From a virus, in IMG/VR virus record IMGVR_UViG_3300049207_000026, positions 1 to 64,000 of that record: a stretch of DNA of 64,000 nucleotides; one strand, 5' to 3'. Under the pieces are notes generated by a model, which was given only the letters and a program-made list of their open reading frames with translations, was not told the origin of the DNA and did not search any database. This document shows positions 1-41,802 of this stretch, piece by piece (the first letter of the stretch is position 1; each line of letters begins with the position of its first letter). A program made the position numbers and the translations under genes.

Positions 1-181
1 TGGTGAAGGCGTCGGCCATGGTCTTGCGCGTTGCGGCCGCCGGGCCGCCTTTGATTTGCACGCGCTGATCCGCCTCCCAAGCAAGTGCTGCCGCCTTCGT
101 GTCGAACGTGCCAGATACCCGCTTGCCACCCACCTGAATCCTGTGCCGCCAGACATTCCCATCCTTTACTGGTGCCGCCAT
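1..181 (-). CDS. int: Tyrosine integrase, N-terminal fragment (cut by window edge)
   Basis: Codons 1-60 of a site-specific tyrosine recombinase, beginning at an ATG at 181. The DNA is identical to the corresponding part of the complete integrase at 40068-41033. Only the amino-terminal arm-binding region is visible; the catalytic domain would lie left of base 1. It belongs to prophage unit A and would recombine at the same attachment core. It cannot be said whether the rest of the gene is intact. Confidence 0.85.
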   Translation of the reverse strand, partial: MAAPVKDGNVWRHRIQVGGKRVSGTFDTKAAALAWEADQRVQIKGGPAAATRKTMADAFT

Positions 182-273
182 TTTGCCATTCCCTTTGCCA
201 TTTTTTGGCAGATGGTAGCACTATTACCCCGGCTAACCCCTTATAAAGCACAAATTGACGAACTGATAGGCGT

Positions 274-315
274 AAAAAAAGACCGCTGTTTTCATAGTGG
301 AAAACACGGTCTTTT
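274..315. terminator. Bidirectional terminator beside attachment site
   Basis: An A-run, a long stem (AAAAGACCG..GTTTTC pairing with GAAAAC..GGTCTTTT) around loop ATAGTG, and a T-run make a symmetric intrinsic terminator. It would separate integrase transcription from late transcripts reading in from the lysis genes. Confidence 0.75.
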
Positions 316-357
316 ATGATCCAACACGTTCTTACGGAAAATCACCTAAAATTCCTC

Positions 358-373
358 TGGTGCCCCGAGCCGG
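358..373. other. Attachment core (A/B junction), tRNA 3'-end-like
   Basis: On the minus strand this 16-mer reads CCGGCTCGGGGCACCA, the form of a tRNA 3' end: T-stem strand CCGGC, acceptor TCGGGGC, discriminator A, CCA. No tRNA body adjoins it, as expected for an attP-type junction between tandem prophages. It lies about 180 bp upstream of int. The assignment is inference from sequence form. Confidence 0.5.
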
Positions 374-435
374 TGTCGTGTTTCTATTTGAATCAATAAC
401 TTGGCGGCAATTTTGGCACTTCAATGCCAGAAAAT

Positions 436-819
436 TCAGATTGCTTGCTTTTCCTGGCTCGTGTAGTGCGACGAGCCGCCAATCCTGACCCCAGCCCACA
501 TCATCCAGCGCTGGAACCAGGACACCCCGGACGCCTCCGACGCCTCGCGCAGCACCGCGTCGGCCACCTTTCGCGACACCTCGCCCGACGAATACAGCCA
601 GTCATGGACGACGGCCGCTTTCGTGGCCACGTTCCCTGCCAGCAGGTAGATGACCGGTAGCCTTGGCGTGCTGGTCAGGTCCGTCTGGAAGCCGCGCGGC
701 ACGATGATCAGGCGCTCGGCGACGTCGGAGTAGTACATCAGGGGTTCAGTCAGAAGCCAGATCCCGCTGTCGTCGTCCCCGACCGCTTCCATGGCCAGTT
801 TGGAAAGGAAGCCGCTCAT
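436..819 (-). CDS. DUF1353 family phage protein
   Basis: 127 residues, matching the DUF1353 family found near phage lysis genes. The family signature is a hydrophobic PRGFQTDL segment, followed by VVHDWLY and a C-terminal GVRIGG stretch. The function is unknown; a cell-wall-related role has been supposed only from its neighbours. Its ATG overlaps the stop of the upstream spanin-like lipoprotein (ATGA), so it is translated as the last gene of the lysis operon. The last 48 bases lie in the perfect 483-bp repeat. The unit C copy (41288-41671) differs at only a few residues. Confidence 0.8.
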   Translation of the reverse strand: MSGFLSKLAMEAVGDDDSGIWLLTEPLMYYSDVAERLIIVPRGFQTDLTSTPRLPVIYLLAGNVATKAAVVHDWLYSSGEVSRKVADAVLREASEASGVSWFQRWMMWAGVRIGGSSHYTSQEKQAI

Positions 820-950
820 TTCTTTTCCGCTTGTGCGGCCTCGATGTCAGCGGCCAAGTTGTCGGTCTGGTAGGATGCGGACCACTGGAATTTCAGGTTC
901 GCGCAGCCGGCCAGGGCGAGCGCAGCCGCCAAGACGATAAGTCGTTTCAT
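816..950 (-). CDS. Small lipoprotein, Rz1-like outer-membrane spanin
   Basis: A 44-residue lipoprotein: start MKRLIVLAAALALAGC, a signal peptide with lipobox LAGC, and about 28 mature residues. Placed after the endolysin and overlapping both neighbours (TGATG upstream, ATGA downstream), it fits an o-spanin that links to the inner membrane during lysis. No partner i-spanin (Rz) was found, and the mature part lacks a proline-rich stretch, so the spanin role is tentative. The mature sequence is nearly identical in unit C while the signal peptide differs, which supports a real gene. Confidence 0.65.
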   Translation of the reverse strand: MKRLIVLAAALALAGCANLKFQWSASYQTDNLAADIEAAQAEKK

Positions 951-28506: not shown

Positions 28507-28709
28507 GCTGCCTGCTCCTGCTCAATGCGGTTGCACGTGGCCGGCGCAATATGGGACTGTGGGAGGGCCTGCGCCTGCAAAATGGCGTACTCAGCTTCCC
28601 AGGTCGCGTGCGCGGCGCTGTGCCACGGCAGCGGGCAGTCGGCAAGCGGCAGGCCGGCGGCGAACGCGGCACGCGCACGGCGCTGGATTTCGGCAATGGT
28701 GACGATCAT
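28503..28709 (-). CDS. Hypothetical 68-aa early protein
   Basis: 68 residues: MIVTIAEIQRRARAAFAAGL, a LPWHSAAHATWEAEY middle and a Gln-rich end. Stop and start overlap both neighbours. Small early proteins of this kind are common before methyltransferases; no function can be given. Confidence 0.5.
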   Translation of the reverse strand: MIVTIAEIQRRARAAFAAGLPLADCPLPWHSAAHATWEAEYAILQAQALPQSHIAPATCNRIEQEQAA

Positions 28710-29086
28710 GCTTCACCCCCGGTCGCGGCCTTGAGCATCGCCATGATGTTCGGCAACTGCTTGGCCAGCTCGCCCAGGGCCCGGTCCTTGCGCGCCTTCT
28801 CGTCCTCCAGGAATTTCTCCACCAGCCAATGAATCGGCGATGTGTCGCCCGTGGCGCGCACGAAGCGCTCCAGGTCGTCGACCGAGAAGTGCCGCGGGTC
28901 GTCCGGGTTGCCGTGCAGTTTGCGCGACAGGTCCGACTGGCTCATGTCCATGTCGGCCGCGATGGTCTTCAAAGGGTTGCGGTGCCCGTAGGCACTGGCC
29001 CGGATGCAGTCGAGCAGGTGCGGATACTTTTCCGTCAAGCCAGCTTCGAAGTCGAGGGTAAATTGAGTACTGGAAATCTGCGGCAC
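28706..29086 (-). CDS. CII-like (phage CP76 family) transcription regulator
   Basis: 126 residues from a GTG with GAGGAAA upstream. It has a helix-turn-helix NPLKTIAADMDMSQSDLSRK followed by PRHFSVDDLERFVRATGD, the pattern of the P2-like CII/CP76 family. A helical C-terminus follows. It is second in the early operon after the cro-like gene, as lambda cII. It likely steers the lysis-lysogeny choice. Confidence 0.75.
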   Translation of the reverse strand: MPQISSTQFTLDFEAGLTEKYPHLLDCIRASAYGHRNPLKTIAADMDMSQSDLSRKLHGNPDDPRHFSVDDLERFVRATGDTSPIHWLVEKFLEDEKARKDRALGELAKQLPNIMAMLKAATGGEA

Positions 29087-29128: not shown

Positions 29129-29362
29129 TTAGGTAGGGGATGCTTGTGCGAGTTCGGGCCAGATTTGCTGCCAGTCATCGGGGAACATTTCTTGGCGCGT
29201 GACAGCCCCGCCAGTTTCCGATTCGATGGCAACGGCAAACTTGACGGGGATCGGGCGCTTACCGTCAGCCCAGCGGCTCAGGTCCGGGACGTGTGCATTG
29301 ATGGCGCGAGCCAGCGCAGCGGCGCGGCCACGTTCTTGAGAGAGGTATTGGGAAAGGTTCAT
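29129..29362 (-). CDS. Cro/YdaS-like repressor
   Basis: 77 residues with a YdaS-type helix-turn-helix: LSQYLSQERGRAAALARAIN and PDLSRWADGKRPIP. First gene of the minus-strand early operon, divergent from the CI-like gene. Its promoter (TTGCAG-17-TAATCT) overlaps the 15-bp operator at 29373. It should repress the repressor gene and early promoters during lytic growth. Confidence 0.8.
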   Translation of the reverse strand: MNLSQYLSQERGRAAALARAINAHVPDLSRWADGKRPIPVKFAVAIESETGGAVTRQEMFPDDWQQIWPELAQASPT

Positions 29363-29369
29363 GCCTGCT

Positions 29370-29398
29370 AGATTAGCCTAAAGCTAACCGTACTGCAA
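29370..29398 (-). promoter_or_regulatory. Early promoter for the cro-like operon
   Basis: On the minus strand TTGCAG, 17-bp spacer, TAATCT. The operator at 29373-29387 starts 5 bp after the -35 box and covers the -10 edge, so bound repressor would exclude RNA polymerase. The leftward promoter at 31577 has the same geometry. Confidence 0.65.
29373..29387. promoter_or_regulatory. Operator O1, TTAGCCTAAAGCTAA
   Basis: Near-perfect 15-bp palindrome TTAGC-N5-GCTAA, identical to the copy at 31554. It overlaps the -10 box of the cro-operon promoter. Confidence 0.8.
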
Positions 29399-29406
29399 GA
29401 ATTATC

Positions 29407-29421
29407 TTAGCTTTAAGCGAA
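29407..29421. promoter_or_regulatory. Operator O2, TTAGCTTTAAGCGAA
   Basis: Same palindrome with one half-site change, 34 bp from O1. Confidence 0.7.
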
Positions 29422-29430
29422 TGTACATGA

Positions 29431-29445
29431 TTAGCCGGATGCTAA
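29431..29445. promoter_or_regulatory. Operator O3, TTAGCCGGATGCTAA
   Basis: Third copy, 24 bp from O2 and 11 bp before the chosen repressor start codon, suggesting autoregulation. Confidence 0.75.
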
Positions 29446-29456
29446 AGAATGCACGA

Positions 29457-29813
29457 ATGAAAACAATTGATGAAATCTACCGCGACAATCTCAGGCTATT
29501 GGCCGCCGAGCACAATTCGGTGGTGGCTGTGGCTGACTTGATCGGGTGCAGTTCGTCGCAGTACAGCCAGTGGATGAACGGTTCGGAGAACTCCGGAACC
29601 GGCAAGCCGCGAGGTATGCGGGTCAGCACTGCCAGGCGAATTGAAAAGGCATGTGGCAAGCCGGCGGGCTGGATGGACAAAGTACATGACGATAACGAGC
29701 GCGAGGTCGAGGAGCTGTTATCGCTGTTCCAATCGCTTGGAATAAAAGATAGGCAGATGGCGCTTACGATGATTCGGGCAATCTCGGAAAACGCCGCGCA
29801 AGTGCCAAGATGA
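29457..29813 (+). CDS. CI-like phage repressor (no peptidase domain)
   Basis: 118 residues from the ATG at 29457; upstream ATGs lie within operators. The N-terminal half has a helix-turn-helix (SVVAVADLIGCSSSQYSQWM, then RVSTARRIEKACGKPAGWMD) as in short CI-like repressors. The C-terminal part (LLSLFQSLGIKDRQMALTMI) could dimerise. There is no S24 autoprotease domain, so induction by RecA cleavage is not expected. The ribosome site is weak. Confidence 0.75.
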   Translation: MKTIDEIYRDNLRLLAAEHNSVVAVADLIGCSSSQYSQWMNGSENSGTGKPRGMRVSTARRIEKACGKPAGWMDKVHDDNEREVEELLSLFQSLGIKDRQMALTMIRAISENAAQVPR

Positions 29814-29948
29814 TCAACAGGATATTGAATCGCGCATGATCATCCATCGCTCTTATTGCAAGTAAAACCTGATTCTCGTAAGTCATTTTTCCGCTTTCAA
29901 TATTTGAAGATGGAAGCCAACTATATTTGTTAAGGGTGCATTTCTAAC

Positions 29949-30020: not shown

Positions 30021-30290
30021 GTGCGATCACTAATTCTCACGCTTTTTTTTCTTTCTGGATGCACTTCCACCTCTGGCGCACTAAGAACTGGACCGGACTC
30101 GTACACGATCAGAACTACGGCATCACCTGGCGCTGGTGGTGGCGCTGCTGCCAAGAAGGCAGCATACGAGCAAGCGAGCGCCGAATGCGCAAAGGCGGGC
30201 AAGTCCCTATCGGCTGGTTCTGAAAGCGGCTCTGTGCCGGGCTGGAATGACGGCGTGCATACAGTAGACCTAACATTCAAATGCGTTTAA
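30021..30290 (+). CDS. Small lipoprotein 1 of the repressor-linked cassette
   Basis: 89 residues from a GTG with AGGAG 5 nt upstream. A lipoprotein signal (SLILTLFFLSGC, acylated Cys about 14) is followed by a GPDSYTIRTTASPGAGG segment and AAYEQASAECAKAGKSL. It resembles the next gene product in the order G-P-x-x-Y-x-I then Ala/Lys helix, so the two look like ancient duplicates. In the position of lambda rexA, probably expressed in the lysogen. Confidence 0.7.
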   Translation: MRSLILTLFFLSGCTSTSGALRTGPDSYTIRTTASPGAGGGAAAKKAAYEQASAECAKAGKSLSAGSESGSVPGWNDGVHTVDLTFKCV

Positions 30291-30301
30291 CCGAGGATGA
30301 T

Positions 30302-30643
30302 ATGAAAAAATTAGTTTTTGCAGGCTGTGTAATCCTTGCTGGCTGCGCTTCCATCGGGCCGGTTCCAATTGGGAAGGATACGTACATGATTTCGAAACAA
30401 AGCGCTGCTGGCGCCTTTGGCTCATCTGGCGCGGTGAAGGCCGAGATTATCCAAGAGGGAAGCGCGTACTGCGCAGCAAACAAGAAGGTTTTTCAGATAG
30501 TGAGCAGTTCGGACCGCCCGGCAGGTTATGGCCACAATCCTTCTGCCGAAATTAATTTCATGTGTTTGTCCGAAGGAGATCCGGAACTCTCCAGACCAAA
30601 GTTGCGCAAGGAAGCTGACACGGTAGTTGAAGTCAGAAAGTAA
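30302..30643 (+). CDS. Small lipoprotein 2, paralogue of the preceding one
   Basis: 113 residues from an ATG with GAGG upstream. The lipobox is in FAGCVILAGC. The body contains GKDTYMISKQSAAGAF, then IIQEGSAYCAANKKVFQI, paralleling lipoprotein 1. It ends with a charged tail (LRKEADTVVEVRK). Likely outer-membrane-anchored; function unknown, perhaps envelope change or superinfection exclusion. Confidence 0.7.
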   Translation: MKKLVFAGCVILAGCASIGPVPIGKDTYMISKQSAAGAFGSSGAVKAEIIQEGSAYCAANKKVFQIVSSSDRPAGYGHNPSAEINFMCLSEGDPELSRPKLRKEADTVVEVRK

Positions 30644-30671
30644 TTCCGCCCAACTCACAAATGGAGATAAC

Positions 30672-31061
30672 ATGAAATTCTGCGCTGTTTTGGCCTTGCT
30701 TACGCTAACCGGGTGCGCGTACAGCATGCAGATGATGCCGCGCGATAGTGGCCAGGTCTACGCTGGAACCATTAGCAGCAATGGTTTCGGCTCCGGTAAG
30801 TTGTCCGTGCAAATTGATGGACGCACCTGCTCAGGTAACTTTGTTCAGGTTGGAAGTGGTGACAGCTTTGGTTTCGCGCAAACCTATGGACGTCGCCCAT
30901 CGACTACTTTAATTCAGATGAGCGGCGGCACTGAAACGTACAAGGCGCTCCTCACCTGCACGGATGGAATGGGCCTTCGCTGCGATGCTTCCGGATCAAC
31001 TAGTGGCGGTGGCGTCTGTGTGGACAGCTCATCCCGAGTCTACGACATGATGTACAACTGA
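30672..31061 (+). CDS. Small lipoprotein 3
   Basis: 129 residues from an ATG with GGAG upstream: signal MKFCAVLALLTLTGC (lipobox LTGC). The mature part is Gly/Ser/Thr-rich with SGQVYAGTISSNGFGSGKLS, four cysteines (CSGNF, LTCTDG, RCDASG, GVCVD) and predicted beta strands. Not related to lipoproteins 1 and 2 in an obvious way. Part of the same cassette. Confidence 0.7.
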   Translation: MKFCAVLALLTLTGCAYSMQMMPRDSGQVYAGTISSNGFGSGKLSVQIDGRTCSGNFVQVGSGDSFGFAQTYGRRPSTTLIQMSGGTETYKALLTCTDGMGLRCDASGSTSGGGVCVDSSSRVYDMMYN

Positions 31062-31094
31062 GTAACCCCGCCAATGATGGCGCGGAAAGGATGT

Positions 31095-31466
31095 ATGGAC
31101 ACCTTCAAAATATCGGATGACGGGCAAACGGTTATCGTATCCGCCGATGGCGTTAACAACACGTTTTCGCTGGTGCAAGTGGAAGCCATGATTGACTTTT
31201 TCGGCGTTATTCGTGGCCAGATGAATCCGCCCGTACCACACGATCAAAGCCCGTCAGAAAAGTTCCGTCCTCTCGATAACCTATTTGTCCGTCACACACG
31301 TGCAGGACAGGTTCCGACACTCCATGGTGCGGTCCTGGTGGCCGGGTCGAGCCAATTTGGTTGGTTCGAGTACCCAATGACCGGCGATTATTGTGCGGGG
31401 CTGATTGAGTGGCTGCGTGGGAACTCGCAAGCCTTAGCAGCGCCGCCAGGTTTAACGTTGAACTGA
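31095..31466 (+). CDS. Cytosolic protein closing the lipoprotein cassette
   Basis: 123 residues from the ATG after GGAAAGGATGT; no signal peptide. It starts MDTFKISDDGQTVIVSADGV and has HGAVLVAGSSQFGWFEYP in the middle. A mixed alpha/beta fold is likely. Followed 23 bp later by a strong terminator. Function unknown. Confidence 0.6.
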   Translation: MDTFKISDDGQTVIVSADGVNNTFSLVQVEAMIDFFGVIRGQMNPPVPHDQSPSEKFRPLDNLFVRHTRAGQVPTLHGAVLVAGSSQFGWFEYPMTGDYCAGLIEWLRGNSQALAAPPGLTLN

Positions 31467-31489
31467 TTACCATAACCCCTCCCAATAAG

Positions 31490-31511
31490 CCCGCCCAGTG
31501 CGGGTTTTTTT
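31490..31511 (+). terminator. Terminator closing lipoprotein cassette
   Basis: CCCGC-CCAGT-GCGGG stem followed by seven T. It separates the repressor/lipoprotein unit from the leftward early operon. Confidence 0.8.
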
Positions 31512-31553: not shown

Positions 31554-31568
31554 TTAGCCTAAAGCTAA
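31554..31568. promoter_or_regulatory. Operator O4, TTAGCCTAAAGCTAA
   Basis: Exact copy of O1, 34 bp upstream of O5. Confidence 0.8.
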
Positions 31569-31576
31569 AATAATGC

Positions 31577-31605
31577 TTGCGTTGCGATTAGCCTTACGCT
31601 AAAGT
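31577..31605 (+). promoter_or_regulatory. Leftward-type early promoter
   Basis: TTGCGT, 17-bp spacer, TAAAGT, with operator O5 beginning 5 bp past the -35 box exactly as at the cro promoter. It drives the recombination operon. Confidence 0.65.
31588..31602. promoter_or_regulatory. Operator O5, TTAGCCTTACGCTAA
   Basis: Fifth palindrome copy, lying across the spacer and -10 box of the leftward promoter. Confidence 0.8.
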
Positions 31606-31664: not shown

Positions 31665-32066
31665 ATGGGACACAAGGACATGGATTGGACCGCAATCGAC
31701 CGCGAGTACGAACGGCAGGGTGAAGCCGACGACGCATTCCAGGCGCGCTTGGCCGAGCAGACGAAGGTGCATGCCGCCGCGATCCGCAGGAACATCCAGA
31801 CGGGCCACGCGCAGACGATCGAGAGCATTACCGAGGGCCTGTGCGATCGCCTGGGCCGCAGCGGCGTGACCGAGAAAATCGTGCGCGCCTCGCTGATCGG
31901 CGGCCCGCTGACCGCTGGCAACCTGCTGCTGGACCTGATCAACAAGTGCATCGAAGCCGATGCCGACAACGCCGCGCTGGTCGAGTTGGACCGCGAAGAG
32001 CGTGCCGGCGGGCTGGACTTGGCCGCTATTCGCCGCGCGGCGCCTGAATTGCGGGTGCCGTCATGA
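31665..32066 (+). CDS. First gene of recombination operon, hypothetical
   Basis: 133 residues with GGAG before the ATG. It is helical and charged (MDWTAIDREYERQGEADDAF), with SGVTEKIVRASLIGGPLTAGNLL later. First gene after the repressor-controlled promoter, where phages often place host-takeover or antirestriction genes. No family recognised. Confidence 0.6.
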   Translation: MGHKDMDWTAIDREYERQGEADDAFQARLAEQTKVHAAAIRRNIQTGHAQTIESITEGLCDRLGRSGVTEKIVRASLIGGPLTAGNLLLDLINKCIEADADNAALVELDREERAGGLDLAAIRRAAPELRVPS

Positions 32067-32361: not shown

Positions 32362-33198
32362 ATGAACGAACTTACCACCCATGGCACCGAGCTAGGTTTC
32401 TCCCTGACTCCACGAACCCTGGCCGAGGCCATGGAATTCTCGAAAATCATCGCGTCGTCGGACATGGTTCCGAAGGACTACATCAATAAACCGGGCAATG
32501 TGCTGGTGGCCGTGCAGACCGGCGCCGAGCTTGGCCTCAAGCCGATGCAGTCGCTGCAGGGAATTTCCGTGATCAACGGCCGCCCAGGCGTGTGGGGTGA
32601 TGCGATGCGCGCGCTCATTCTTAGCCACCCCGAGTTTGAGGATTTGCATGAGGACAAGCAAGAGACCCAGTGCACCGTCACGCTGAAGCGTCGCGGTCGC
32701 TCGGCAGTGGTGACGAAGTACACGATGGAAGATGCGAAGAAGGCCGGATTGGCAGGTAAGCAGGGCCCATGGCAGACGGCACCAAAGCGAATGCTGCAGA
32801 TGCGCGCCTTTGCGTTCGCCGCACGCGATCTGTTCGCTGATGCGCTGAAAGGCATCAAGTCAGTGGAAGAGTTGCGCGACTATCCACCAGAGCCAGAGCG
32901 CGACATGGGCTCGGCTGTGGTGGTCGAGCAAACCGATCCTGCGCTAGCCTCACTGATTCAAGCAGCAAGTGCAGCAGCCGTTGCTGGCATGGCCAGCTAC
33001 CAGATCTTCTGGAAGGAGACCAGTAAAGAGAACCGCAAGCTGCTGGCCGCTCATCATGAGACATTCAAGGAAGCCGCAGATCAGGCTGATCGAGAAGCGG
33101 CTGGGAATCAGGTTGATACACGGGAACCGGCTGCTGAGGCCAAATCTGACGCTTCGAACAATGACTTCATAGCTGGCTTGGACGCGGTAGAGCAATGA
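32362..33198 (+). CDS. recT: RecT-family single-strand annealing protein
   Basis: 278 residues. It anneals complementary single strands made by the neighbouring exonuclease, as lambda Bet does. RecT features: GNVLVAVQTGAELGLKPMQS, INGRPGVWGDAMRALI, and APKRMLQMRAFAFAARDLF. The C-terminal tail is charged and low-complexity. Its stop overlaps the exonuclease start. Confidence 0.88.
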   Translation: MNELTTHGTELGFSLTPRTLAEAMEFSKIIASSDMVPKDYINKPGNVLVAVQTGAELGLKPMQSLQGISVINGRPGVWGDAMRALILSHPEFEDLHEDKQETQCTVTLKRRGRSAVVTKYTMEDAKKAGLAGKQGPWQTAPKRMLQMRAFAFAARDLFADALKGIKSVEELRDYPPEPERDMGSAVVVEQTDPALASLIQAASAAAVAGMASYQIFWKETSKENRKLLAAHHETFKEAADQADREAAGNQVDTREPAAEAKSDASNNDFIAGLDAVEQ

Positions 33199-33836
33199 TC
33201 CGCGAGTTCACCATTGTCGACTGTGAGCAGCGGTCCCCCACCTGGTTCGCAGCGCGCGCCGGCCTGGTTACTGGCAGCAAGGCGAAAGTGGTGTTCATGC
33301 GCGACGGCACGGCTGGGCGCGACGACTATGTGCTGCAGCTCGCGCTCGAGCGGCTCACCGGGGTGGTTGAGCCTGAGCCGTATGTGTCGGCTGAGATGAA
33401 GCGCGGCATTGAGAAGGAATCTTGGTGCCGACTGGCCACCGAGATTCAGTACGGCGTGAGCATCCGCCAGACAGGCTTCTGCCGCCACAACAAGCTGATG
33501 ATCGGCATGTCCTTCGACGGCGACATTGACGACTTCACTACGTTCACCGAATTCAAGGCGCCAAAATCGAAAACGCACGTCAACTACATGCGCGCCAAGT
33601 CGCTGCCGGCCGAGTACATGCCGCAGGTGATGCATGGCCACCTGGTTTCGAGCGCCAGGCATTCGATCTTCTGCAGCGGCGACGACCGGCTACCGGAAGG
33701 TCTGGATGCCTTCTACGTTGAATGCAACATCAACGATTTACCAATGGAAGAGTACGAAAGAGCGCTGACCAAATTTCTTGACCAGGTCAGCAAGGTCGAA
33801 ATTGAACTGAAACTTATGATCGAGGGGAAGCTGTGA
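33195..33836 (+). CDS. YqaJ/lambda-type recombination exonuclease
   Basis: 213 residues. Early residues EQRSPTWFAARAGLVTGSKA are the family's entry motif. Acidic metal-binding residues sit in MSFDGDIDDF and the FTEFKAPKS (E-x-K) site of the PD-(D/E)XK fold, followed by YMPQVMHGHL. It digests one strand of duplex ends to feed RecT. It ends EGKL and overlaps the next GTG start. Confidence 0.85.
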   Translation: MIREFTIVDCEQRSPTWFAARAGLVTGSKAKVVFMRDGTAGRDDYVLQLALERLTGVVEPEPYVSAEMKRGIEKESWCRLATEIQYGVSIRQTGFCRHNKLMIGMSFDGDIDDFTTFTEFKAPKSKTHVNYMRAKSLPAEYMPQVMHGHLVSSARHSIFCSGDDRLPEGLDAFYVECNINDLPMEEYERALTKFLDQVSKVEIELKLMIEGKL

Positions 33837-39831: not shown

Positions 39832-40073
39832 GCACCGAAGAACTATTGCAGGAATTGCTGAACAAGGTTGCCGGCGCGCTGATCCCGGTCCAGATCGACG
39901 CATGGGACACTGAGCACATCGCGCGGTATATGAAGCGCACAGTCGACACGGTGCGGCGGGAAATCGTCGTGCAGCCTGATTTCCCGAAGCCTATGCGCAT
40001 TCCAGGCGCCGGAAAGGGTAGGGCGCTGTGGAAAGCTCGAGAGGTCGTGGCGTGGCTGGAAAGCCGCTCATAA
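39828..40073 (+). CDS. xis: Excisionase / AlpA-like DNA-binding protein
   Basis: 81 residues. The winged-helix pattern WDTEHIARYMKRTVDTVRRE..PDFPKPMRIPG..GRALWKAREVVAWLESR is that of AlpA/Xis proteins. It lies tail-to-tail with int, overlapping its last bases. It should direct excision by bending attachment DNA. Last gene of the leftward operon. Confidence 0.8.
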   Translation: MSTEELLQELLNKVAGALIPVQIDAWDTEHIARYMKRTVDTVRREIVVQPDFPKPMRIPGAGKGRALWKAREVVAWLESRS

Positions 40074-41033
40074 CTTGGCGGCGATATCTTCGGCCGACTC
40101 GTTGTAGTAGCGCATGAGCTGGCGGATATCCTTGTGGCCTACCATGCGCGCAAGGTCAAGCACATGCAGCTTCTTGGCTAGCCTGGTGATCGCCTCGTGC
40201 CTGGTGTCGTGGAAGGTCAGGCCCTTGACGCCAGATCGCTCCTTGGCCTTGCGAAACAGTGCGTCCAGGCCTTTGGAATCCAGTTCGAAGCCATCCGGCA
40301 CCACCTCCCAAATCGCAAGCGCGGCGGCCGACAGCGGTACACTTCGCGGCATTCCGTTCTTCGTCATGTGAAGCCTGGCCACGCGCCCTGTCACATCTCC
40401 CTTGCGTAGCGCGCAAATCTCCCCAGCCCGCATTGCTGTCTCAATGGCCCACAGGAAGGCGAGGGCGATGCGATGCTGCTTGGTGGTGGGCGCCGACCAC
40501 TGCACCCTCCTATCGAGGCCCAGGGCTAGACAGATGGCGTCAATCTCGCCTTCCGTGATAAGGCGGTCGCGCGCTGGTGGATTTTCAGGGCGGGCCACAT
40601 CCTTTGATGGGCTGGCATCGAGCCAGTGCCACTCCTTGCGGGCGATGGTCAGAACGTGCGACAGCAGGTTCATGTCGCGGTTGACGCTCGATCCCTTGAC
40701 CTTTTCCAGGCGGGTGTCGCGCCAGGCAGCGACGTCAGCGGCGCGCAGCTCCGACACGCGTATATCGGCCAGCGACGAGGCACGGAAGGCTGCTAGGCGC
40801 TTCGCCTCGTTAAGGTGGCTCCGCTTCTTTTTGGACACCTCCAATTCGTACTTGGTGAAGGCGTCGGCCATGGTCTTGCGCGTTGCGGCCGCCGGGCCGC
40901 CTTTGATTTGCACGCGCTGATCCGCCTCCCAAGCAAGTGCTGCCGCCTTCGTGTCGAACGTGCCAGATACCCGCTTGCCACCCACCTGAATCCTGTGCCG
41001 CCAGACATTCCCATCCTTTACTGGTGCCGCCAT
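40068..41033 (-). CDS. int: Tyrosine integrase of unit B
   Basis: 321 residues, a complete site-specific recombinase. The catalytic set is visible: Arg202 (ETAMRAGEI), Lys225 (HMTKNG), His275 and Arg278 (FHDTRHE), His300 (MVGHKD) and Tyr309 (LMRYYN). The N-terminal arm-binding domain (FDTKAAALAWEADQR) and a core-binding SAM-like helical domain precede it. Transcribed toward xis. The attachment core is about 180 bp upstream. Its first 181 bases equal the fragment at the left edge. Confidence 0.92.
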   Translation of the reverse strand: MAAPVKDGNVWRHRIQVGGKRVSGTFDTKAAALAWEADQRVQIKGGPAAATRKTMADAFTKYELEVSKKKRSHLNEAKRLAAFRASSLADIRVSELRAADVAAWRDTRLEKVKGSSVNRDMNLLSHVLTIARKEWHWLDASPSKDVARPENPPARDRLITEGEIDAICLALGLDRRVQWSAPTTKQHRIALAFLWAIETAMRAGEICALRKGDVTGRVARLHMTKNGMPRSVPLSAAALAIWEVVPDGFELDSKGLDALFRKAKERSGVKGLTFHDTRHEAITRLAKKLHVLDLARMVGHKDIRQLMRYYNESAEDIAAKL

Positions 41034-41125
41034 TTTGCCATTCCCTTTGCCATTTTTTGGCAGATGGTAGCACTATTACCCCGGCTAACCCCTTATAAAG
41101 CACAAATTGACGAACTGATAGGCGT

Positions 41126-41167
41126 AAAAAAAGACCGCTGTTTTCATAGTGGAAAACACGGTCTTTT
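41126..41167. terminator. Bidirectional terminator at B/C junction
   Basis: Exact copy of the hairpin at 274-315, between int and the attachment core. Confidence 0.75.
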
Positions 41168-41209
41168 ATGATCCAACACGTTCTTACGGAAAATCACCTA
41201 AAATTCCTC

Positions 41210-41225
41210 TGGTGCCCCGAGCCGG
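41210..41225. other. Attachment core (B/C junction), tRNA 3'-end-like
   Basis: Exact copy of 358-373, again without a flanking tRNA gene. Phage DNA lies on both sides, as in a tandem-lysogen junction. Confidence 0.5.
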
Positions 41226-41287
41226 TGTCGTGTTTCTATTTGAATCAATAACTTGGCGGCAATTTTGGCACTTCAATGCCAGAAAAT

Positions 41288-41671
41288 TCAGATTGCTTGC
41301 TTTTCCTGGCTCGTGTAGTGCGACGAGCCGCCAATGCGCACCCCAGCCCACATCATCCAGCGCTGAAACCAGGACACCCCGGACGCCTCCGACGCCTCGC
41401 GCAGCACCGCGTCGGCCACCTTGCGCGACACCTCGCCCGACGAATACAGCCAGTCATGGACGACGGCCGCTTTCGTGGCCACGTTCCCGGCAAGCAGGTA
41501 GACGACTGGCAGGCGCGGCGTGCTGGCCAGGTCAGTCTGGAAGCCGCGCGGCACGATGATCAGGCGCTCGGCGACATCGGAGTAGTACATCAGGGGCTCA
41601 GTGAGCAGCCAGGTCCCGCTGTCGTCGTCCCCGACCGCTTCCATGGCCAATTTGGAGAAGAAGCCGCTCAT
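41288..41671 (-). CDS. DUF1353 family phage protein (unit C)
   Basis: 127 residues from the ATG at 41671, overlapping the spanin-like stop; the longer open frame upstream is a shadow. Nearly identical to the unit B protein (changes such as FLSKL to FFSKL and DLTSTP to DLASTP), with the last 16 codons inside the perfect repeat. Confidence 0.8.
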   Translation of the reverse strand: MSGFFSKLAMEAVGDDDSGTWLLTEPLMYYSDVAERLIIVPRGFQTDLASTPRLPVVYLLAGNVATKAAVVHDWLYSSGEVSRKVADAVLREASEASGVSWFQRWMMWAGVRIGGSSHYTSQEKQAI

Positions 41672-41802
41672 TTCCGTTCCGCGCGCGCGGCCTCGATGTC
41701 GGCGGCCAGGTTGTCGGTCTGGTAGGATGCCGCCCACTGGAATTTCAGGTTCGCGCAGCCGGCCAGGGCGAGCAATGCGACAATAATGGCAAAACGTTTC
41801 AT
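41668..41802 (-). CDS. Rz1-like small lipoprotein (unit C)
   Basis: 44 residues, MKRFAIIVALLALAGC start with lipobox LAGC. The mature part (NLKFQW, SYQTDNLAADIEAA) matches unit B almost exactly, although the linked endolysin is unrelated. That supports a function independent of endolysin type. Confidence 0.65.
   Translation of the reverse strand: MKRFAIIVALLALAGCANLKFQWAASYQTDNLAADIEAARAERK

Follow-up and report, generated by a model that had tools for sequence, protein, structure and literature searches.

The window (the whole stretch of DNA analysed, the first 64,000 bases of a virus record 74,109 bases long) contains one ~41 kb temperate phage unit with an integrase, together with most of a second related unit; it is the integrase gene that marks the phage as temperate. 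Downstream of the repressor gene, on the same strand and before the left early operon, lie four small genes, A to D, followed by an intrinsic terminator (Table 1). An earlier sequence-only reading had described three small lipoproteins, two of them apparently paralogous, and one cytosolic protein, ended by a terminator of their own. This description was borne out by the lipoboxes, the open reading frames and the terminator, the predicted hairpin of which has an energy of -11.5 kcal/mol (z = -2.5). A and B are paralogues that align with 30% identity over 91 columns (E = 8e-8) and have the invariant residues of the family in common; no signal peptide was seen by eye in D. Gene A has a GTG start with an AAGGAG ribosome-binding site, and the A-B, B-C and C-D spacers are 11, 28 and 33 nt, respectively.

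Table 1 Features of the immunity region and flanking genes in the window
Feature	Position	Strand	Evidence or remarks
CII-like regulator	28706..29086	-	Phage_CP76 PF06892 E=5e-9; phrog_101 3e-9
Cro-like/YdaS protein, divergent from repressor	29129..29362	-	YdaS_toxin PF15943 E=3e-12; phrog_35
Right operator cluster (OR-like), putative	29373..29445	.	sites 29373-29387, 29407-29421 (1 mismatch), 29431-29445
Repressor (CI position)	29457..29813	+	phrog_12107 transcriptional repressor 9e-27
A: lipoprotein, 89 aa, B family (short form)	30021..30290	+	lipobox LSGC; paralogue of B
B: lipoprotein, 113 aa, B-family founder	30302..30643	+	lipobox LAGC; relatives in phages, plasmids, genomes
C: lipoprotein, 129 aa, C-family founder, predicted 8-stranded barrel	30672..31061	+	lipobox LTGC; relatives L064, L065, L008
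D: cytosolic ORF, 123 aa	31095..31466	+	no relative found
Intrinsic terminator	31487..31511	+	AAGCCCGC-CCAGT-GCGGGTTT + T run
Left operator cluster (OL-like), putative	31554..31602	.	sites 31554-31568, 31588-31602
First early-operon gene after OL	31665..32066	+	95-97% identity in L011-L013
RecT-family recombinase	32362..33198	+	PF03837 E=4e-6
RecE/YqaJ-like exonuclease	33195..33836	+	phrog_149 2e-20
Integrase	40071..41033	-	phrog_1 1e-49

Layout of the immunity region

A putative operator, TTAGC-N5-GCTAA with one mismatch allowed, occurs at five sites in the 64 kb, three before the repressor and two past the terminator. No site lies outside these two clusters in the 64 kb, none of 100 shuffles reached five sites, and a 34-nt site spacing is common to both clusters. 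The last OL-like site falls inside a promoter-like sequence (TTGCGT-17-TAAAGT, 31577-31605), and the same promoter/operator geometry was found at L011 (TTGACA-17-TAAAGT) and L065 (TTGTCT-17-TAAACT). In lambda the order is OR, cI, accessory genes and OL/pL. Judged by its sequence, the immunity region of the window has the lambda layout, and because the cassette is set between two clusters of the same putative operator it truly occupies the rexAB position. That placement had been proposed before and holds, with the cassette closed by the terminator and the recombination operon starting past the second cluster.

The further claim that the cassette directly follows the repressor is correct as to order and strand, but a 207-nt AT-rich gap (35.7% GC) precedes A, which makes co-transcription with the repressor presumptive in the window. 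No predicted terminator was found between the repressor and A, nor was a convincing promoter found in the gap before A. The repressor frame is open from 29421; its start at 29457 was assigned from KS9 and other homologues. Small antisense ORFs overlie the repressor end in the window (29764-29886, minus strand) and in siblings (L006:6451-6675, minus strand). When these were weighed as convergent genes that would break co-transcription, no homology support was found for them. In KS9 and BgManors32 the convergent gene at the repressor end is a different one.

The cassette was also said to be lower in GC than its neighbours. It has 53.1% GC versus 60.9% for the window, and only 2.2% of segments of the same length are as low, but all of these segments overlap 28.9-31.7 kb, and it is the whole immunity region rather than the cassette alone that is low.

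The record holds two related ~41 kb phages head to tail (window 1-921 and 40853-41773) with a 483-bp identical block at the junction, and the two units are 73-97% identical, in blocks. This arrangement reflects either prophages in tandem or co-occurring relatives that were joined during assembly. The contig that contains L010 and L011 likewise has two immunity loci. Joins between phages may lie outside the immunity region of these contigs; assembly chimaeras within that region are unlikely, since the operators that flank each locus match one another.

Two lipoprotein families and their predicted folds

The residue that follows the lipobox cysteine (+2) is Thr in A and Ala in B and C, not Asp, and all members of the A, B and C families checked have Ala, Thr or Val at this position. 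In E. coli the absence of Asp at +2 predicts sorting to the outer membrane, and by this rule A, B, C and their relatives are predicted outer-membrane lipoproteins. The B and C families each have two invariant cysteines in addition to the lipid-bearing residue, a pair consistent with a periplasmic disulphide. The features that define the B family (a lipobox, G-x-D-(T/S)-(Y/F), two further Cys and F-x-C) were all present; A has these motifs and is missing the C-terminal tail. AlphaFold modelled B as a small alpha/beta fold (beta-beta-alpha-beta-beta; pLDDT 77, pTM 0.64), for which neither the PDB nor a viral fold library yielded a match below E 1e-3. The C model is an 8-stranded barrel (pLDDT 77, pTM 0.71) that was matched mainly by designed beta-barrels (E 7e-4, TM 0.55-0.6); these matches support the modelled barrel and point to no function.

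The sequence-only reading did not recognise the set, and comparison with Pfam, PHROGs, NCBIfam, PADLOC and PDB sequences gave no family match for any of the four proteins. The relationship to a known but unrelated family that, according to that reading, would speak against it did not appear. A to D matched no lipoprotein Pfam family at E values up to 5 and none of the PADLOC-DB defence models; neither RexA/RexB homology in Pfam, PHROG and PADLOC nor a match to TraT in Pfam was found. A candidate identity with Cor through phrog_1119 was rejected, the match being mainly over the signal peptide (B residues 1-34, E=0.004; C residues 1-68, E=0.035). Exclusion proteins were matched neither in sequence nor clearly in fold. 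Searches of 50,697 GenBank phages with B, C, D and their relatives found nothing, and at the sensitivity used the families are practically absent from the isolated phages of that set. No relative of D was found in viral contigs or in 300 genomes, the genome search being one that had no positive control.

Distribution and exchange of the cassette genes

Other phage carriers were found by alignment-based scans of IMG/VR. In five phages a B gene (L057, L058 and L005) or a C gene (L064 and L065) lies behind a different repressor and on the repressor strand. The same four-gene order had been proposed as something to seek in other prophages: the exact order was found nowhere, and what recurs is B or C alone behind the repressors of these phages and a B-C pair in a Sulfurimicrobium genome (L008), where the two genes are adjacent as in the window. 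The repressor-to-lipoprotein gaps of L057, L058 and L065 are 26, 20 and 14 nt, respectively, leaving little room for a separate promoter; those of L064 and L005 are 551 and 1,102 nt, with further small same-strand ORFs in between. Recombination genes (RecT, YqaJ or Erf type) then come in L005, L057, L058 and L065. Peptidase_S24 matches were obtained for the repressors of L058, L064 and L065, with only a weak one for L057, and pairwise identities among the repressors of these phages are at most about 31% where they can be aligned. Short stretches in L064 excepted, no DNA shared with the window was detectable. L065 has a terminator and a putative operator on both sides; operators on both sides were sought and not found in L057 and L058 and are doubtful in L064. 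A Rap1a-type immunity gene (L057:2009-2413; PF18602, E=2e-10) lies directly after the B-family gene of L057. Three phages (L060-L062) carry B amid structural genes, and in L056 B is at the contig end, a copy uninformative as to position.

As a control we used phages having the repressor family of the window (L066-L071, KS9, BgManors32, CF63a and IFTN9). Their slot genes are varied and none was annotated or seen as a lipoprotein. Hence, the slot is a variable accessory site that holds lipoproteins in the group of the window, and occupation of the slot does not in itself imply exclusion. The non-lipoprotein genes directly behind the same-family repressor in three of these phages (L070:4757-5140, L071:4757-5140 and L066:4758-5660) are candidates for lysogen-expressed functions.

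Four sibling immunity loci have one to three lipoproteins each in the slot, and the families differ: A-B-C in the window, B' in phage 2, C in L010 and a third type in L011. Phage 2 has another repressor and another putative operator (TTTAGG-N4-CCTAAA, three sites before and two after), and its slot contains B at 74% identity plus a different small ORF; L004 is identical to phage 2 across the 3.7 kb compared. L010 has the phage 2 repressor, but its slot is occupied by C (96% identical to C of the window) and a PHROG-1244 protein. L011 combines a third repressor type with a lipoprotein of another family. The borders of these swaps lie at ribosome-binding sites (CACAAATGGAGATAACATG, short conserved stretches) and near the terminator. 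Comparison of C with its L010 copy gave dN/dS 0.18, and comparison of B with its phage 2 copy gave pS 0.82 and pN 0.21; the purifying selection on B and C estimated from these alignments supports the genes being real.

The C-terminal half is common to the repressors of the heteroimmune siblings (L006:6151-6549, L010:5344-5742 and L011:4574-4936; 91% over 58 aa). The phage 2 and L011 repressors share C-terminal halves and differ in their DNA-binding halves, and sibling repressors that differ in DNA-binding half and putative operator amount, at the sequence level, to a repressor domain swap.

The B family also occurs on at least 70 plasmids, many of them 2.9-7 kb in size and otherwise carrying hardly more than genes for replication, mobilization or toxin-antitoxin pairs. 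The plasmid hosts are enterobacterial (Klebsiella, Enterobacter, Citrobacter), Aeromonas and Acinetobacter, and one B-carrying plasmid was found among E. coli genomes. The plasmids are of ColE1-type, mob or RepB types; 51 of 70 are predicted to be non-mobilizable, some are mobilizable, and some B genes are beside MbeD-type mobilization/exclusion genes. Among the tiny plasmids are L078 (NZ_CP034765.1, 2927 bp), L080, L014 (3.7 kb) and L016. The next gene in L078, L080 and L016 encodes a small multi-span membrane protein, and the L078 and L080 copies are 64% identical. Some plasmid lipoprotein copies are unannotated, and one plasmid lipoprotein gene (L079:797-1130, pAH3680) is apparently broken by a frameshift.

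In chromosomes B is sporadic (10 of 369 genomes of the class to which L008 belongs), and C was found in 6 of 300 genomes of the order. A C-family gene, a conserved chromosomal relative, adjoins an aconitase gene in three Burkholderiales genomes (L050, L051 and L052), in L052 clearly between the aconitase and prpD-like genes, which suggests a housekeeping origin.

Comparison with known systems and candidate functions

Ltp of Streptococcus phage TP-J34 is a lipoprotein encoded in the lysogeny module behind a CI-type repressor; it is made by the lysogen and blocks DNA injection, and as with the cassette its gene has moved horizontally among phages (PMC3952083). Unlike A to C, Ltp belongs to a Gram-positive setting and is anchored outside the cytoplasmic membrane, and no homology of A to D to the Ltp domain was found in Pfam. 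Llp of T5 acts on the outer-membrane receptor FhuA, blocking it from the periplasm (PMC9586334). Llp and Cor (T1, phi80) are small lipoproteins with a disulphide, as predicted for the cassette proteins, and share with A to C a lipobox and a +2 residue that by the E. coli rule permits outer-membrane location. They are shorter, however, they form no sequence family with A to C beyond the signal peptide, and the Llp gene adjoins the receptor-binding gene pb5 (PMC9586334). Rtp45, a protein of about 6 kDa, blocks LptD from the periplasm (PMC12685063), and lipoproteins of the mEp temperate coliphages give exclusion by receptor group (PMC11893012). Like the cassette, Rtp45 and the mEp proteins Lpp021 and Lpp010 are phage lipoproteins of several sequence types, theirs being accompanied by receptor-group exclusion, but the mEp genes are in the structural cluster and not behind the repressor (PMC11893012). 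The slot of the cassette, behind cI and before the left early operon, is that of RexAB in lambda and of BstA in BTP1, and transcription of bstA in the lysogen starts at the cI promoter (PMC7067206). RexA is described as DNA-binding and RexB as a membrane protein (PMC12894663, PMC11077077); RexAB is unrelated to the lipoproteins A to C.

By analogy with Ltp, Llp, Rtp45, the mEp lipoproteins and bstA, the cassette is presumed to be expressed in the lysogen, to place its lipoproteins in the outer membrane and to exclude phages. On this basis it is very probably a lysogen-expressed lipoprotein cassette, and we lean, with nearly even confidence, to superinfection exclusion at the envelope as its main role. 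The best reading of the comparisons is that the lipoproteins work like Ltp, Llp or Cor but belong to none of those families. The repressor, from its maintenance promoter, and this lysogenic-conversion cassette would both be transcribed in the lysogen while the operators on either side keep the two lytic operons silent. After export and lipidation, A, B and C would be directed to the outer membrane, as disulphide-bonded domains in the periplasm, and would there bind or jam surface receptors or disturb DNA entry and so exclude competing phages, an action like that of Ltp, Llp and Rtp45 carried out by unrelated proteins. The observed exchange of the slot as a module between heteroimmune siblings fits competition between phages as its driving force.

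The strongest rivals are a general role at the envelope and toxin immunity, the latter because of the Rap1a gene that follows B in L057. Under the former, host-derived lipoproteins would alter the outer membrane (stress, surface binding, biofilm) for the benefit of the lysogen and exclude nothing specifically. The chromosomal relatives of C beside aconitase, the sporadic chromosomal B genes and the presence of B in structural-gene regions of some phages fit such a role, but swapping between heteroimmune siblings and repeated placement after a repressor favour phage competition over housekeeping, and we consider it rather unlikely. ColE1-type plasmids are a usual home of immunity genes, and the B-family genes that they carry could, like those of the phages, protect the host cell, lysogen or plasmid-bearing, not against phages but against bacteriocins of neighbouring bacteria or their effectors that act in the periplasm. 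However, Rap1a is beside B in one phage only and none of A, B, C and D matches its family. Apart from toxin-antitoxin pairs, the neighbourhoods of B and C in the phage loci and small plasmids read contain no recognised toxin gene, and several lipoproteins per cassette would need several toxins, all of which makes toxin immunity unlikely.

It is distinctly improbable that the lipoproteins act like TraT in entry or surface exclusion, keeping out conjugative or mobilizable DNA, be it incoming plasmids or the carrier's own kind. The abundance of B on plasmids, some of them mobilizable, and its occasional MbeD-type neighbours would agree with this, but most carriers are predicted to be non-mobilizable, TraT is not matched in Pfam and it is hard to see why a phage would carry several genes of this sort. 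Least credible of all is that the genes are ordinary mosaic cargo, idle in the lysogen and brought to their position by recombination at conserved flanks, since, although the module borders coincide with such short stretches, the low dN/dS of C and pN/pS of B argue against it, as does recurrence of the families at the same place in phages having no DNA similarity to the window phage.

Superinfection exclusion at the envelope is therefore the role we prefer. A fuller version of it, which we offer tentatively, is that B and C may found two undescribed superinfection-exclusion families of Gram-negative temperate phages, co-expressed with the repressor and exchanged together with immunity type as a module, each type having its own receptor-blocking set, with small plasmids using B for protection against phages. 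Phage-excluding lipoproteins that act at the receptor or on DNA entry have been characterised in a few coliphages and streptococcal phages. What is new here is two families without a database model that recur behind the repressors of different phages, one of them the near-sole cargo of very small plasmids. If these proteins do exclude phages, they would constitute a widespread and easily missed layer of resistance conferred by a gene of just 0.4 kb.
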